Below are positions 575-12,342 of a stretch of DNA of 64,000 nucleotides, in pieces. The position numbers and the translations under genes were made by a program. The DNA is from Halolamina sp. CBA1230 (GTDB taxonomy: Archaea > Halobacteriota > Halobacteria > Halobacteriales > Haloferacaceae), in contig NZ_CP054588.1 in NCBI RefSeq assembly GCF_002025255.2, positions 1-64,000 of the forward strand. Reading direction: 5' to 3'. The notes below the pieces were generated by a model. The model was not told the DNA's origin, ran no database searches, and saw nothing but the letters and a program-made list of their open reading frames with translations. Every line of letters starts with the position of its first letter. The first letter of the stretch is position 1.

Positions 575-1441
575 ATGACCGACACGGAACCGCGGGCGGT
601 CAGCGTCGGGGTGTTGAAGGGGGGGTTCGGGAAGACCACCACCGCGATCAACACCGCACGCGAGCTTGCCCACCGGAACGACAGCGCCCTCGTCGTCGAC
701 CTCGACGACAACGGGCACATGACCAGACAGCTCGGCTTCGAGGACGCGTACACGAGCGACACCAACCACGCCCAGCGCGTGCTGATCGACGGCGAGGAGC
801 CGACCCAGTACGCGGTGAACGTCGTCGACGGGCTGGACCTGTTCCCGGCCCACACCGAACTGGAGTCCGTCGAGAACGAGCTCCGGAACGCGACGATGGG
901 GAGCGCCCGGCTCCGGAAACATCTCGTCGACCCGCTGCTCGGCGGCGAGTACGAGTACGTCGTCGTCGACTGCCCGGCGAACCGCGGCAAACTCAACGAC
1001 AACGCGATGTACGCCACTCGCAACATCATCATCCCACTCAAACCCGAGAGCGGCTACGACTCCGGCCTCTCGAACACCATCCAGCGGCTGGTCGAGGACG
1101 CCCGCGAGTACTTCGAACTCGACATCCTCGCGGTGACGCCGACCGCGCTGAACGGCCGGATCGACCAGGACACCCGCGACCGCGGGCTGCTCGAACAGCT
1201 CAACTCGCTCGACATCGCCGACGACATCGTCCCTTCCTACGCCCGGATCACCGACGAGGAGTGGGACGCGATCGACGCCGGCGAGTACGAGGGTGAGCTC
1301 CCCGGGATCCGCTTCCGGGGTGCGATCGACGCCGCTCACGACGCCGCGCTCCCGGTCCGGGACTACGACGGGAGCTGTGACCAGTTGAAGAACTACGCGG
1401 AGCTGGCCCGCATCGTCGAACAGGGAGGGATCGACCGATGA
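575..1441 (+). CDS. parA: ParA/MinD-type partition ATPase
   Basis: The 288-residue protein carries the deviant Walker A motif KGGFGKTT (residues 15-22), a switch region LVVDLDDNGHMT (about 40-52) and a Walker B segment YVVVDCPAN (about 127-135). This is the architecture of ParA ATPases, which use ATP-driven cycling on nucleoid DNA to segregate replicons. The next gene overlaps by four bases (ATGA), so the two are co-translated and presumably form an ATPase-partner pair. Iterated 9-bp repeats directly upstream fit an autoregulated par operon. Chromosomal Soj-like or plasmid-type ParA cannot be separated by sequence alone, but the short-repeat context favours a plasmid-like system. Confidence 0.93.
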   Translation: MTDTEPRAVSVGVLKGGFGKTTTAINTARELAHRNDSALVVDLDDNGHMTRQLGFEDAYTSDTNHAQRVLIDGEEPTQYAVNVVDGLDLFPAHTELESVENELRNATMGSARLRKHLVDPLLGGEYEYVVVDCPANRGKLNDNAMYATRNIIIPLKPESGYDSGLSNTIQRLVEDAREYFELDILAVTPTALNGRIDQDTRDRGLLEQLNSLDIADDIVPSYARITDEEWDAIDAGEYEGELPGIRFRGAIDAAHDAALPVRDYDGSCDQLKNYAELARIVEQGGIDR

Positions 1442-1776: not shown

Positions 1777-1963
1777 CCTACCGGCCGGGCGTTGTTGTGT
1801 ATCGCGATATACGATTTAACGAGGTTAACGTCGCGGCTCCGGCGCCACAGCGGAGAACACCTCGACCGAACGGCATCACGCCGATCGGAAACGTCCCTAA
1901 CAAACGTACGAGTGTTATGTATCGATCCGTAAGCCTATATCGGCGGGGGCGTACAGTGAGGTA

Positions 1964-2584
1964 GTGAGCGATTCCGGAACGTCGAACGGGGCAGGCCGAC
2001 GGGGCAAGGTAGTACAGCTGATCGAGGAGCACGAGCTCGACGGGATCGGCGACCGGCTCGAGCGTCGCTGGACGGCCGACGGCGACGAACGGATGAGTCT
2101 CCGCGATCTCGCCGACGAGTTCAACCGTGAACTGCTCCGAACCGCGATGGCCGAGGCGGGGATGCAGCTCCTCGACGGGGAGGTCGACAACACCTACCGG
2201 CTGTTGACGGGCGGCGACGTCAGCGGCGCCGACCGGACTCGGACCGAACGCCAGCTCCGGCGGGAGGGGGTCGACGTCGACCGACTCCAGGAGGAGTTCG
2301 TCACGTACCAGGCGATCCGGACGTTCCTCAAGGGCCACCGTGGCGCGTCGTACGACGCGGACGCGGGGGACCGCGCCGAGTCGGGGAAGGAGCAGATCGG
2401 ACGGCTCAAGGGGCGCGTCCGGACGGTCACCGACAGCAAACTGGAGCAGCTCCGGCGGAACGACGAGATCGAGCTGGGAGAGTTCCGCACGCTCGTCGAG
2501 GTGAACGCACTGTGTGAGGACTGTGGTTCGCAGTACGACGTCGAGACGCTGCTCGACCGCGGCGGCTGTGACTGCGACACGTGA
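1964..2584 (+). CDS. rdfA: Rod-determining factor RdfA family protein
   Basis: The 206-residue product starts at GTG. It has the family layout: a basic N-terminal segment (GRRGKVVQLIEEHELDGIG), the LADEFNRELLRTAM segment, a variable middle, and a C-terminal four-cysteine cluster (CEDCG at about 187-191 and CDC at the end) likely to bind zinc. RdfA is required for rod-shape formation in Haloferax volcanii, where it lies beside an SMC-like gene. The same neighbour, the archaea-specific SMC-related protein, follows here after 58 bases. DNA binding is plausible but not proven by sequence. A paralogue lies at 5214-5801. Confidence 0.88.
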   Translation: MSDSGTSNGAGRRGKVVQLIEEHELDGIGDRLERRWTADGDERMSLRDLADEFNRELLRTAMAEAGMQLLDGEVDNTYRLLTGGDVSGADRTRTERQLRREGVDVDRLQEEFVTYQAIRTFLKGHRGASYDADAGDRAESGKEQIGRLKGRVRTVTDSKLEQLRRNDEIELGEFRTLVEVNALCEDCGSQYDVETLLDRGGCDCDT

Positions 2585-2611
2585 ACGGCCGGCCCGGTTC
2601 GCCAGCCGACA

Positions 2612-2620
2612 TGTTTATAC
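2612..2620 (+). promoter_or_regulatory. TATA-like promoter element of the SMC-related gene
   Basis: ATGTTTATAC lies about 25 bases upstream of the start codon at 2643, the spacing expected for a haloarchaeal leaderless transcript. It indicates that the SMC-related gene can be transcribed separately from rdfA. Confidence 0.6.
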
Positions 2621-2642
2621 GAGCCGCGCTGACAGCACGCCT

Positions 2643-4583
2643 ATGCAACGACAACAGGCGTCGGCACCTGCCGCGACGATACACGCCAGAAACATCGGGG
2701 GGATCGGGGAGACCGAAGTCACGTTCGAGCCCGGCGTGACGATCCTCGTCGGGCGGAACGCGACGAACCGGACCTCGTTCCTCCAGGCGGTGATGGCGGC
2801 GCTCGGGAGCGGGAACGTCGCGATGAAGGGCGACGCCGACGAGGCCGAAGTCACGCTCGAACTGGGCGAGGAGACGTACACCCGAACGTTCAGCCGACGC
2901 GACGGCGGCGGCGAGCGCGGCGGCGACCCGTACCTCGACGAGCCGACGCTCGCGGAGCTGTTCGCGTTCCTGCTGGAGTCGAACGAGGCACGGCGCGCGG
3001 TCGCGACGAACGCGGATCTCCGGGAGCTGATCATGCGCCCGGTCGACACCGACGAGATCGAGTCCGAGATCGACCGGCTGCAGGACCGCCGGGAGACGCT
3101 CGAGGCGGAGCTCGACGCGATCGACGACCGGAAGGGGGAGCTCCGGGAGCTGGAGGACCGCCGCGAGACGCTCCGTGAGGAGATCGAGGCGACGAAAGCC
3201 GAACTCGAGGAGACCGAGGCCGAGCTCGACGCGGCCGACGGCGACGTCGCGGCGCGGCGCGAGGAGCAGTCCGAGCTCGAGGACCGGCTCGCCGAGCTCC
3301 GCGAGAAGCGGGCCGAGCTCGACGACGTTCGGTACGAGCTCGAAACCGAACAGGAGAGCCTCGCGGCGCTGGAGACCGAACGCCGGGAGTGTGAGTCCGA
3401 GCTCGAGGCGCTGTCGGACGACCCGGACGCGGACGCCGACGGGATCGACGCCCGGCTCCGTGAGCTCCGGGAACGGAAGGGGGAGCTCGAGTCCCAGGTG
3501 AACGAGCTCCAGAGCGTGATCCGGTTCAACGAGGGGATGCTCGACGACGACGGGGCGGCGGTCCCGGCGGAGCTGGCCGGCAGCGGGGACGAGAGCGTGA
3601 CGGACAAGCTGGTCGACGACAGCGTCACCTGCTGGACCTGCGGCACCGCGGTCGAGCCCGGGCAGATCGAGTCGACCGTCGAGCAGCTGCGCGAACACAG
3701 CCAGTCGAAAGTCGGCGAGGTCGACCGGCTGGAGGACGAGATCGAGGAGCTCCAGTCCGAGAAACGCGAGATCGAGCGCACGGAGCGCGAGCGCGAGCGG
3801 CTCGAGCGCCGGCTGGGCGAGCTCGACGACGAGATCGAGGCGACCGAGGCGACCGTCGAGGAGCTCCGGGACCGTCGGGAGTCACTGACCGGGGAGATCG
3901 AGCGCGTCGAGGCTGCGGTCGACGAGCTCGAGGAGGAGGAGTACGGCGACGTGCTCGAGCTCCACAAAACCGCGAACGAGCTGGAGTACGAGCTCGGCCG
4001 GCTCGAAACCGACCTCGAGGATGTCGAGGCCGAGATCGCCGACGCCGAGGAGCGCATCGGCGAGGAGGAGGAAGTTCGGGACGAACTCGACGACGTGGCC
4101 GACCGGATCGAGCGCCTCCGAACCCGGATCGAGCGCATCGAGCGCGAGGCCGTCGACTCGTTCAACGACCACATGGCGTCGGTGCTGGGGCTGCTCGACT
4201 ACGACAACCTCGACCGGATCTGGATCGAGCGCGTCGAGCAGGAGGTCCGGAAGGGCCGCCGGAAGGAGACGGAACGCGCCTTCGAGCTCCACGTCGTCCG
4301 CACCACCGACTCCGGCGCCGCCTACGAGGACACCGTCGACCACCTCTCGGAGAGCGAGCGGGAGGTGACGGGGCTGGTGTTCGCGCTCGCGGGCTATCTG
4401 GTCCACGACGTCTCGGAGACGGTGCCGTTCGTGCTGCTGGACTCGCTGGAGGCGATCGACTCCGTGCGCATCGCGGCGCTGGTCGACTACTTCGCGGATC
4501 ACGCACAGCACCTGCTGGTCGCGCTCCTGCCGGAGGACGCCGCCGAACTCGACGACGGCCACGAGCGAGTCACCGAGATCTGA
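2643..4583 (+). CDS. Archaea-specific SMC-related protein (Sph-type coiled-coil ATPase)
   Basis: The product is 646 residues, taking the start at 2643 because a TATA-like box sits about 25 bases upstream. An N-terminal ABC-type head half (GVTILVGRNATNRTSFLQ, about 33-50) is followed by long Glu/Arg-rich heptad coiled coil, a CWTC motif at the tip (about residue 335) resembling a Rad50 zinc hook, a return coiled coil, and a C-terminal half with LSESER (signature-like) and FVLLDSLEAID (Walker-B-like). The P-loop lysine of GxxGxGKS/T is replaced (GRNATNRTS), a hallmark of this family. SMC-like proteins of this type are implicated in haloarchaeal cell-shape or chromosome organisation. It sits between two RdfA-type genes. 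Confidence 0.9.
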   Translation: MQRQQASAPAATIHARNIGGIGETEVTFEPGVTILVGRNATNRTSFLQAVMAALGSGNVAMKGDADEAEVTLELGEETYTRTFSRRDGGGERGGDPYLDEPTLAELFAFLLESNEARRAVATNADLRELIMRPVDTDEIESEIDRLQDRRETLEAELDAIDDRKGELRELEDRRETLREEIEATKAELEETEAELDAADGDVAARREEQSELEDRLAELREKRAELDDVRYELETEQESLAALETERRECESELEALSDDPDADADGIDARLRELRERKGELESQVNELQSVIRFNEGMLDDDGAAVPAELAGSGDESVTDKLVDDSVTCWTCGTAVEPGQIESTVEQLREHSQSKVGEVDRLEDEIEELQSEKREIERTERERERLERRLGELDDEIEATEATVEELRDRRESLTGEIERVEAAVDELEEEEYGDVLELHKTANELEYELGRLETDLEDVEAEIADAEERIGEEEEVRDELDDVADRIERLRTRIERIEREAVDSFNDHMASVLGLLDYDNLDRIWIERVEQEVRKGRRKETERAFELHVVRTTDSGAAYEDTVDHLSESEREVTGLVFALAGYLVHDVSETVPFVLLDSLEAIDSVRIAALVDYFADHAQHLLVALLPEDAAELDDGHERVTEI

Positions 4584-10584: not shown

Positions 10585-11895
10585 TCAGTCACTCGTGTCG
10601 TCCCGAACCCGGCCGTCGGTGTTCGACAGCGCCTCCGTCGCCATGTCGGCGCGTTCGGCGGCCTCGATATGCTGGTAGGCCTGTCGGACCTGCTCCTCGC
10701 TGTTGTCGAGGTAGCGGGCGGCGGCCGCGTAGCCGAACTCCCGGACCATCACCTCGCCCATTCCGCGTCGGCCGCCGTGGGGAGCGAGATACTCGTGGCG
10801 GTCGTCGTCGACCGCGATCTCGGCAGCCTCGCAGAGCCGCTGCAGCATCCGGCGCGCGCCGTTGGGTTTCAGCGCCGGCGGCGCGTCGAGGCCGAACTCG
10901 GCGGCGACGAGGAGGTCGGGTTTCCCCTCGCGCTGGCGGTCGATCTCCGTCTCGGAGAGCCCCCGATCGCGGAGTCCCTCGGTCACGTGCCGGGCCAGCG
11001 ACGGACGGTGGAGCGTCGTGAACACCGGCCAGTCCTCGGGGGCGTCGAGTAGACGGCGGTAGCGCCGCAGCGGGCCGACGACCGGATCGGGGAGGGAGGC
11101 CTCGTCCCACTGCTGTTTCTTCCGGTAGACGGTGACGTTGTTGTCCGCGAGGGAGACGTCCGCCCAGCGGATCCCGTTCCGCCCCGGCCGGTCGTCGTCG
11201 GGCGCGTCGAGGAACTCGGCGGCGCGCAGCCCCGTGTAGCAGAGCACGTACGCGAGCGCGCGCTCGCGACAGCGCTTGTACGCGGTGAACCGTGCGTCAG
11301 CCTTCTCCCGGACGGCCTCGCTCTCGGGGTCGCCGCGCTCGTCGGCGGGCACCTCGATCTCGCCGAAGGCGTCGAGGGCCGCCGACGCTCGCTCGTCGAC
11401 GTACCGGGTGAGTCGGTCGCGCTGCTCGGGCGACCACGCCTGCTGGTCGCCGGGGCGTCGGCCGGTGCTCTCGGGCAGCGGGTCCTCGGCGTCGGACTCC
11501 CGGGCGTAGTGGCGCGGGACGTACCCCTGTGCGTCAGCCCAGCCACACCAGGAGGCGACGTAGGCGTAGTACGTGAGCACGGTCGCGTTCGCGAACCCCG
11601 AGACGACGAGGTAGCGGGCGTAATCCCCGAACACCGTCGAGTCGAGGTCGGTGAAGCGGACGTCTCGGCCCTCGCCCCCGGGGTTCGCGTCCCGAACGAC
11701 GCCCTCCCAGGACTCGGGCGGCGAGGCGTTCGCCGGATCAGGGGTGTTCCCCCGACACCAGCGCAGGAAGCGGTTCAGCTCCCGCTCGGCGTCGCGGCGG
11801 TAGGCGCCGTCGCTCCCGCCCTCGCCTTTCCCCTTGTCAGTGAGGAACGTCTGAAACGTCCGTTCGATCGGCGTCGAGGCCTCACGCCGGCTCAT
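10585..11895 (-). CDS. Tyrosine recombinase / integrase
   Basis: The 436-residue protein has a SAM-like N-terminal core-binding domain (about 1-150, FTDLDSTVFGDYARYLVVSG...TYYAYVASWCGW) and a C-terminal catalytic domain: a first arginine in YTGLRAAEFLDA, HGGRRGMGEVMVREFGY (box II His-x-x-Arg) and a nucleophilic tyrosine in VRQAYQHIEAAE. It should catalyse site-specific strand exchange, as in integration or dimer resolution. It is longer than Xer proteins (about 300). The start at 11895 (MSRREASTPIERTF) is chosen because upstream residues are not recombinase-like. The phased 9-bp array lies after its 3' end and a 13-6-13 inverted repeat lies 95 bases before its start. Confidence 0.87.
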   Translation of the reverse strand: MSRREASTPIERTFQTFLTDKGKGEGGSDGAYRRDAERELNRFLRWCRGNTPDPANASPPESWEGVVRDANPGGEGRDVRFTDLDSTVFGDYARYLVVSGFANATVLTYYAYVASWCGWADAQGYVPRHYARESDAEDPLPESTGRRPGDQQAWSPEQRDRLTRYVDERASAALDAFGEIEVPADERGDPESEAVREKADARFTAYKRCRERALAYVLCYTGLRAAEFLDAPDDDRPGRNGIRWADVSLADNNVTVYRKKQQWDEASLPDPVVGPLRRYRRLLDAPEDWPVFTTLHRPSLARHVTEGLRDRGLSETEIDRQREGKPDLLVAAEFGLDAPPALKPNGARRMLQRLCEAAEIAVDDDRHEYLAPHGGRRGMGEVMVREFGYAAAARYLDNSEEQVRQAYQHIEAAERADMATEALSNTDGRVRDDTSD

Positions 11896-11989
11896 CGGTG
11901 ATCTCGCAGCGATTCTCGGTGGTAGTAGCAGGAGCGCATGGGTCGGTGGGGTGGGTCGTTTCGGGGGACGGGGGCAGCCAGTAAAGAAC

Positions 11990-12021
11990 TTACGCACGCT
12001 TAGTGAGTTAAGCGTGCGTAA
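11990..12021. other. Perfect 13-bp inverted repeat with 6-bp centre, candidate recombination site
   Basis: TTACGCACGCTTA (11990-12002) and TAAGCGTGCGTAA (12009-12021) are exact reverse complements separated by six bases (GTGAGT). Two recombinase-binding arms around a 6-8 bp crossover region is the geometry of dif (11-6-11) and loxP (13-8-13). It is placed just upstream of the tyrosine recombinase gene. It has no T-run, so it is not an obvious terminator. An operator for the recombinase gene is the main alternative. Confidence 0.6.
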
Positions 12022-12342
12022 ACTGTCGCAGCGGCAGAGTGGCCCCGGTTCGGACGATTGTCACGGTTCAGGGCTCCTACTAACGTATTTCTGGATTCTC
12101 CCGAATTTATAAATCATATACTGCGATATCGATCTTCGACGAGGGGGAAGTTGAGACTACGGCGGGTTTAGCTTTGTACAACCACAGATCTTCACTCGGT
12201 TAATCACAAAAGAGATATGCGAGCTACGGTCGTACACCGAACCCAACACGCGGCTCGGAGCTTGTGTCCCAACCGCAGCCCGATGCGTGCCGGCCCCGGC
12301 CATCTTCGGTGGCTGGGTTTCCAGCTGACGGACCCCAGAACT
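12022..12342. other. AT-richer intergenic region before the TrmB-like gene
   Basis: The first part is ordinary. About 12080-12210 is clearly AT-richer than its surroundings and contains ATTTATAAATCATATACT, a possible promoter. An in-frame ATG at 12217 could extend the TrmB-like protein by 42 residues, but that extension is proline/arginine-rich and unlike the family. No gene seen. Confidence 0.5.

Follow-up and report, generated by a model that had tools for sequence, protein, structure and literature searches.

The plasmid sites cer of ColE1 and psi of pSC101 are recombined by the host XerCD together with ArgR, PepA or ArcA. For the integrase of Tn916 and Tn1549, a variable overlap ('coupling') sequence lies between constant arms, and its variability comes from each insertion site. 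In archaea, dif is an 11-6-11 site that is chromosomal and not located beside xerA, and XerA recombines it without partners (Cortez et al., PMC2958812). A review of archaeal tyrosine recombinases (PMC8371274) treats the haloarchaeal pR1SE1 integrase family as unconnected to other families and does not name it among the groups with demonstrated activity; its passages on this family give no recombination site. In the freely accessible literature searched, we found no description of the site reported here.

The stretch analyzed here (64 kb, hereafter the window) forms the first part of C2, a 254-kb secondary contig in a genome of four contigs. It contains a 32-base inverted repeat that, to judge from a comparison of about 250 haloarchaeal sites, is very probably the core recombination site of the adjacent plasmid recombinase. 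We consider it likely that the whole arrangement, that is, the core together with a helically phased accessory element, serves this recombinase in the resolution of replicon dimers.

The repeat and the adjacent recombinase

An earlier note on this DNA had pointed out a perfect 13-6-13 inverted repeat beside a tyrosine recombinase, and both its coordinates and its complementarity were confirmed. Positions 11990-12021 read TTACGCACGCTTA-GTGAGT-TAAGCGTGCGTAA, and the arms are fully complementary. Taken on the minus strand, as for the recombinase gene, the site consists of the arm on the recombinase side (11990..12002; TTACGCACGCTTA on the plus strand), the asymmetric 6-bp centre (12003..12008; GTGAGT, or ACTCAC towards the recombinase) and the second arm, on the side of the accessory element (12009..12021; TAAGCGTGCGTAA). 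Both arms are perfect and are the same in four congeneric genomes. The centre, the predicted overlap for strand exchange, is invariant in length, and in a sister family it is a hypervariable 6-mer. The near edge of the repeat lies 94 bp upstream of the recombinase ATG (11895, minus strand). No other perfect repeat in the 64-kb window has arms of 13 bases or longer separated by 0-12 bases; a random window generated by a Markov-1 model would be expected to contain 0.06. As to the dif/loxP geometry suggested previously, the 6-bp centre agrees with dif and not with loxP, which has an 8-bp centre. The search for a second copy in the replicon, proposed as a check, gave none: the 32-mer does not recur in the 254-kb replicon or in the 3.47-Mb genome, even with 3 mismatches allowed. 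A resolution site predicts one copy per monomer and does not need a second.

The recombinase gene (10585..11895, minus strand) encodes 436 amino acids. The mechanical open reading frame extends to a GTG at 11997, but a start at the ATG (11895) is in line with the orthologues. Alone, the window recombinase gave no significant sequence match in Pfam, NCBIfam or PDB (PF00589, E=0.012). Members of its family match Phage_integrase (PF00589, 2e-9) and the integrase SAM-like N-domain (5e-9), and the family profile searched against PDB gave XerA (1.6e-4) and XerD (0.004). The top folds for an AlphaFold2 model (pLDDT 78) are Cre-loxP, XerA and Tn1549 Int (Foldseek, 6.7e-6 for Cre and 7e-5 for XerA). 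The catalytic residues R224, K259, H373, R376 and Y407 do not vary among 35 homologues; the position usually occupied by His or Trp is Asn (N398) in more than 90% of them, an atypical feature that counts against an active recombinase, although the other catalytic residues are intact. As judged from the catalytic residues and from the predicted fold and profile matches, the protein is a member of the tyrosine recombinases (DNA breaking-rejoining superfamily). Homologues occur in 260 PLSDB plasmid records, including pNRC100/200 and pR1SE2, and the one on pR1SE2 is 66% identical to the window recombinase.

A short leader open reading frame read from the sequence, MRSCYYHRESLRDHR (11892..11939, minus strand), overlaps the recombinase start by ATGA, which suggests that the two may be translationally coupled. 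A similar leader of 15-25 codons was seen in three congeners (L006-L008). The same genome carries a 39%-identical recombinase paralogue on C4 (L002, G000:C4:31225-34251), with an insertion-sequence relic upstream; no canonical core repeat was recognizable at this paralogue, a point against the recombination-site reading.

The par operon that the earlier note placed close by does exist, and 'close by' was generous. A ParA-type ATPase (575..1441, plus strand; PF13614, E=1e-26) and a small partner occupy 575-1776 of the same replicon, 10.5 kb from the repeat, consistent with a stability region. After ParA, at 1904-4583, are genes for RdfA (PF21811) and an SMC/Rad50-like coiled-coil ATPase.

Conservation of the core and divergence of its centre

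In a comparison set of about 250 haloarchaeal sites, all 32 bases of the repeat, including the centre, are identical in four congeneric genomes with an intact recombinase (86-88% identity), and the 32-mer is absent from three congeners without the recombinase. One locus of the set (L040) is from Halolamina pelagica, a congener in the same genus group. In the congeners, the DNA outside the core and the accessory element is mostly unalignable, and the distance from site to gene is 94-118 bp. Farther out, homologues down to about 35-40% identity have their own repeat 5' of the gene or operon, which keeps the TTA-N6-TAA geometry with a different spelling of the arms. This spelling varies by recombinase clade, and the 6-bp centre and the inner TTA...TAA are constant; the arms are TTACTTTGTCTTA-N6-TAAGACAGAGTAA at a homologue of 65% identity, TGGTCNTGATTA-N6-TAATCACGACCA at one of 50% and GTTTACGTTTA-N6-TAAACGTAAAC at one of 43%. 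A 6-bp centre was scored in 54 of the 76 top matches; where the gap seemed to be 4 bp, it was mostly a 6-bp centre whose outermost bases happen to be complementary. Counting against a cognate site, about one third of the loci have other genes between the core and the recombinase, at a distance of about 1.0-1.5 kb; the insert in one subclass consists of two genes (about 1.2 kb).

The earlier note had also named, as a finding that would speak against a recombination site, an operator bound by the adjacent TrmB-like protein. This is excluded, as relatives carry the identical site without trmB beside it; upstream of the identical site are an insertion sequence in L007 and the end of an AIM24-like gene in L008. 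A broader form of this idea is that the repeat and the upstream element bind some regulator, possibly the recombinase itself as a repressor, and control the operon by looping without any recombination. The core does lie just upstream of a TATA-like stretch and the first reading frame of the operon, also where two genes precede the recombinase, and repressors with a recombinase fold exist (YopR and SroF are among the weaker fold matches). This reading is unlikely in our judgement, as a mere operator would explain neither the invariant catalytic residues nor the arms that vary with the recombinase clade, and the behaviour of the centre, described below, also argues against it. Far less probable still is that the leader of the recombinase mRNA contains an RNA hairpin, such as a terminator or attenuator. 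When transcribed, the repeat would fold into a 13-bp stem; however, many plasmids of the sister family keep the same uncompensated mismatch between the arms (left TGGTCCTGATTA, right TAATCACGACCA), there is no U run, and helical phasing with an upstream DNA element would make no sense for RNA.

The divergence of the centre was measured in the sister TGATTA-N6-TAATCA family; for the arm type of the window, the centre is constant in the four genomes. In nine independent near-identical pairs (flank mismatch of 3% or less), the flanks differ by 1.9% and the 6-bp centre by 31.5%, about 17-fold more, and the most divergent 6-bp window of these sister-family pairs begins exactly at offset 0. This also holds when the 6-mer under test was left out of the choice of pairs: the value for the centre was 0.315, and the other 6-mers had a mean of 0.035 and a maximum of 0.238 (at +70). 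For example, L175 and L312 are 99% identical in the left flank and 100% in the right flank, and have the centres CACTGG and TGCCCG. On a recombinase tree of 67 tips, the centre changed at least 50 times. A dispensable operator spacer would drift like the neutral flanks, and the centre changes much faster; no operator requires a complete change of its centre while neutral-looking flanks stay 97-100% identical. None of the 55 centre types is palindromic, a weak argument against an operator since about 0.9 are expected by chance. In tyrosine recombinases, the sequence of the strand-exchange overlap is free as long as the partners match; loxP spacers are treated in PMC1479339. The fast evolution of the centre, as seen in these alignments, fits such an overlap and is unlike an operator.

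It is possible, although we hold it with some doubt, that the 6-bp centre is an identity tag of the replicon under diversifying selection, so that differing centres avert the fusion of co-resident relatives. If true, the set of centres would form a natural incompatibility code for a multi-replicon genome in which arms, recombinase and accessory element are common. Of 85 pairs of co-resident replicons, 1 has a common centre, where 4.9 would be expected (P=0.036), a figure that follows post hoc cleaning and is suggestive only. The cleaned test left out the one-sided family GCGCRA/CGGCGA and split sites, both of which had been taken in by the first within-genome test with all matches (6 of 106, P=0.62); two-sided sites alone gave P=0.065, and other cuts gave P=0.065-0.15. 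Among the cases set aside, the same centre on two contigs in G429 and in G439 was a single site split at contig ends.

The accessory element and the phasing of the site

The full site extends beyond the repeat and includes an accessory element, which lies about 100 bp away from the core on the side opposite the recombinase. Its motif is TATNGCRNTATA-N3-TTTAT, with the 22-bp form TATNGCRNTATAYRMTTTATAA, and in the window it is TATCGCAGTATATGATTTATAA (12107..12128, minus strand; PWM score 29.2, null maximum 12.8), at a phased spacing; the sequence TATNGCRNTATANNNTTTAT is a candidate target for a binding protein. The element was found in 69 of 73 loci, with a median PWM score of 24.2 in the 62 non-seed loci against a shuffle null maximum of 12.8. 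It was also present in 171 of 180 further sites fetched by the core alone, ignoring the gene, and there only at distances of 98-100 or 107-111. Overall, the distances from accessory element to centre are 98-100, 108-111, 117-120 and 130 bp, with single cases of 79 and 123; from start to start the distance in the window is 120 bp, and three congeners of the same clade have 130 bp. These are steps of one helical turn (best period 10.3-10.4; phase concentration R=0.86 at 10.5 bp), and the phasing holds when only distinct distances are used (Monte Carlo p=0.0004). Core-to-gene distances showed no phasing (p=0.60). A quick recombinase tree calls for at least 18 changes between distance classes.

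Such spacing is what a stereospecific protein-DNA complex over the core and the accessory element would predict, and we note that looping repressors show helical phasing as well, which is a point for purely regulatory binding. The arms change by clade and the accessory sequence is common to all clades; thus, the recombinase would bind the arms, and another, conserved protein the element. Because the element sequence is common to all recombinase clades, this protein, which would sit 120 bp from the core and face the same side of the helix, is probably a common haloarchaeal host factor. The window has one more accessory-like element, TATCGCGATATACGATTTAACG (1800-1821, PWM score 22), directly behind the par operon, and in L050 and L095 such elements directly follow the recombinase gene. 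The accessory-binding protein may serve several plasmid-maintenance loci.

Next to the accessory element in the window, 17 bp outside it, is a 27-bp relic of an insertion-sequence end, GGAAGTTGAGACTACGGCGGGTTTAGC (12146..12172, plus strand), shared with C3 and C4. Of 73 loci, 22 have an end of this kind, GTAGTCTCAACTTCC, at 15-17 bp beyond the accessory element and always in the same orientation; these loci include the window, L003, L007, L009, L013, L024, L085, L086, L088 and L102. This end is not part of the recombination system and marks the site as an insertion hot spot. It looks like the trace of targeted insertion beside a recombination site, comparable to that of the res-site-hunter transposons.

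Role of the site and comparison with known systems

Two mosaic junctions bear on whether the site is used. Between L043 and L068 there is no difference from the accessory element through the final base of the left arm, whereas centre and right side are not the same. L121 and L122, both on a plasmid of Halorientalis marina, share a 6.4-kb stretch that ends with the right arm and is 99.9% identical; beyond it, the similarity is lost at once. Both junctions fall where a tyrosine recombinase would exchange strands, which suggests exchange at the site; these are two examples, and other origins are conceivable.

The copy number per contig points to resolution as the likeliest role: exactly one family site occurs on 220 of 224 contigs, in three of the other four all centres differ from one another, and recombinase homologues are found in 260 plasmid records. 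On the plasmid G489 C4, two direct copies (L121 and L122) have a common centre and lie 113 kb apart, and these count against activity because an active resolvase should delete the DNA between them. In G490, the same centre occurs on two distinct contigs with distinct recombinases, which counts against resolution. Other apparent duplications with identical centres in one contig were rejected, as most such contigs repeat more than 10 kb at 99.9% and were read as untrimmed circular overlaps (CP132293.1, G492 C2, G307 C2, G129 C2 and G204 C2); in G305 C4, the overlap was judged from two sites near the contig ends alone.

In the mechanism we propose, each 13-bp arm would bind one recombinase monomer, and two sites, as in a plasmid dimer, would pair. 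Predicted cuts at the edges of the 6-bp centre and the exchange of strands would then turn the dimer into two monomers. The accessory protein would build the synaptic complex and, by analogy with cer and psi, could favour resolution over fusion. As the core adjoins the promoter region of the recombinase, it is plausible that binding of the recombinase at the core also represses its own gene, alongside recombination. The earlier note had proposed a recombinase site with a function in multimer resolution. Such a site is strongly supported by conservation, clade-specific arms, centre, phasing and mosaics, and resolution is our best guess at what it does.

The same recombinase might instead join replicons, and the repeat would then be where a plasmid attaches for integration or fusion. 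The plasmid pR1SE integrates into host replicons (PMC10818511), and the 66% identical recombinase is on pR1SE2; moreover, the mosaic sites hint at occasional exchange between plasmids, and about a dozen sites are on contigs larger than 2.8 Mb. We nevertheless regard this reading, too, as quite unlikely, since a single copy in the genome leaves no second attachment site, nearly every site is the only one on its contig and belongs to a secondary replicon, and the rarity of shared centres among co-resident replicons is suggestive in the same direction. Furthermore, the integrases of pR1SE-like elements may come from the host, and integration may not be their work (PMC10818511). Dimer resolution is judged the most likely role, and fusion or integration and pure gene control are less likely.

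How haloarchaea keep many large circular replicons monomeric and separate is not established. The evidence assigns a cognate site, a phased accessory element and a fast-changing centre to a widespread family of haloarchaeal plasmid recombinases, so that culturable haloarchaea now allow a direct test of whether replicon dimers are resolved in this way and possibly of whether site identity underlies incompatibility. The many mutually distinct sites may also provide genetic tools at high salt.

Compared with XerA/dif (PMC2958812, PMC3646895), the window site shares a single tyrosine recombinase, near-perfect arms, a 6-bp centre and one copy per replicon. However, dif is chromosomal, has 11-bp arms and lies away from xerA, whereas the arms here are 13 bp and the site, which has a phased accessory element, is on a secondary replicon beside its recombinase; the relation of this protein to XerA is remote (profile E=1.6e-4). 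The locus has the two arms around a 6-bp centre and lacks the position, near the chromosomal terminus and away from the gene, of the site of a XerA orthologue. Like the pR1SE1 family (PMC8371274), the window family is limited to haloarchaea and their plasmids, and the 66% identical recombinase is on pR1SE2. With Cre/loxP of phage P1, which is the best fold match, the locus shares a recombinase and site on the same plasmid, 13-bp symmetric arms and an asymmetric centre, but the loxP centre is 8 bp rather than 6, Cre needs no accessory element, and there is no detectable sequence relation. Variable overlaps between constant arms are also found with Tn916/Tn1549; unlike those, the sites here are resident, single and not transposon ends. 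As in cer and psi, which resolve multimers, a plasmid core is combined with an accessory sequence about 100 bp away, here at a fixed helical phase; the difference is that the obvious partner of the present site is a single recombinase encoded by the plasmid itself, with a putative accessory protein.
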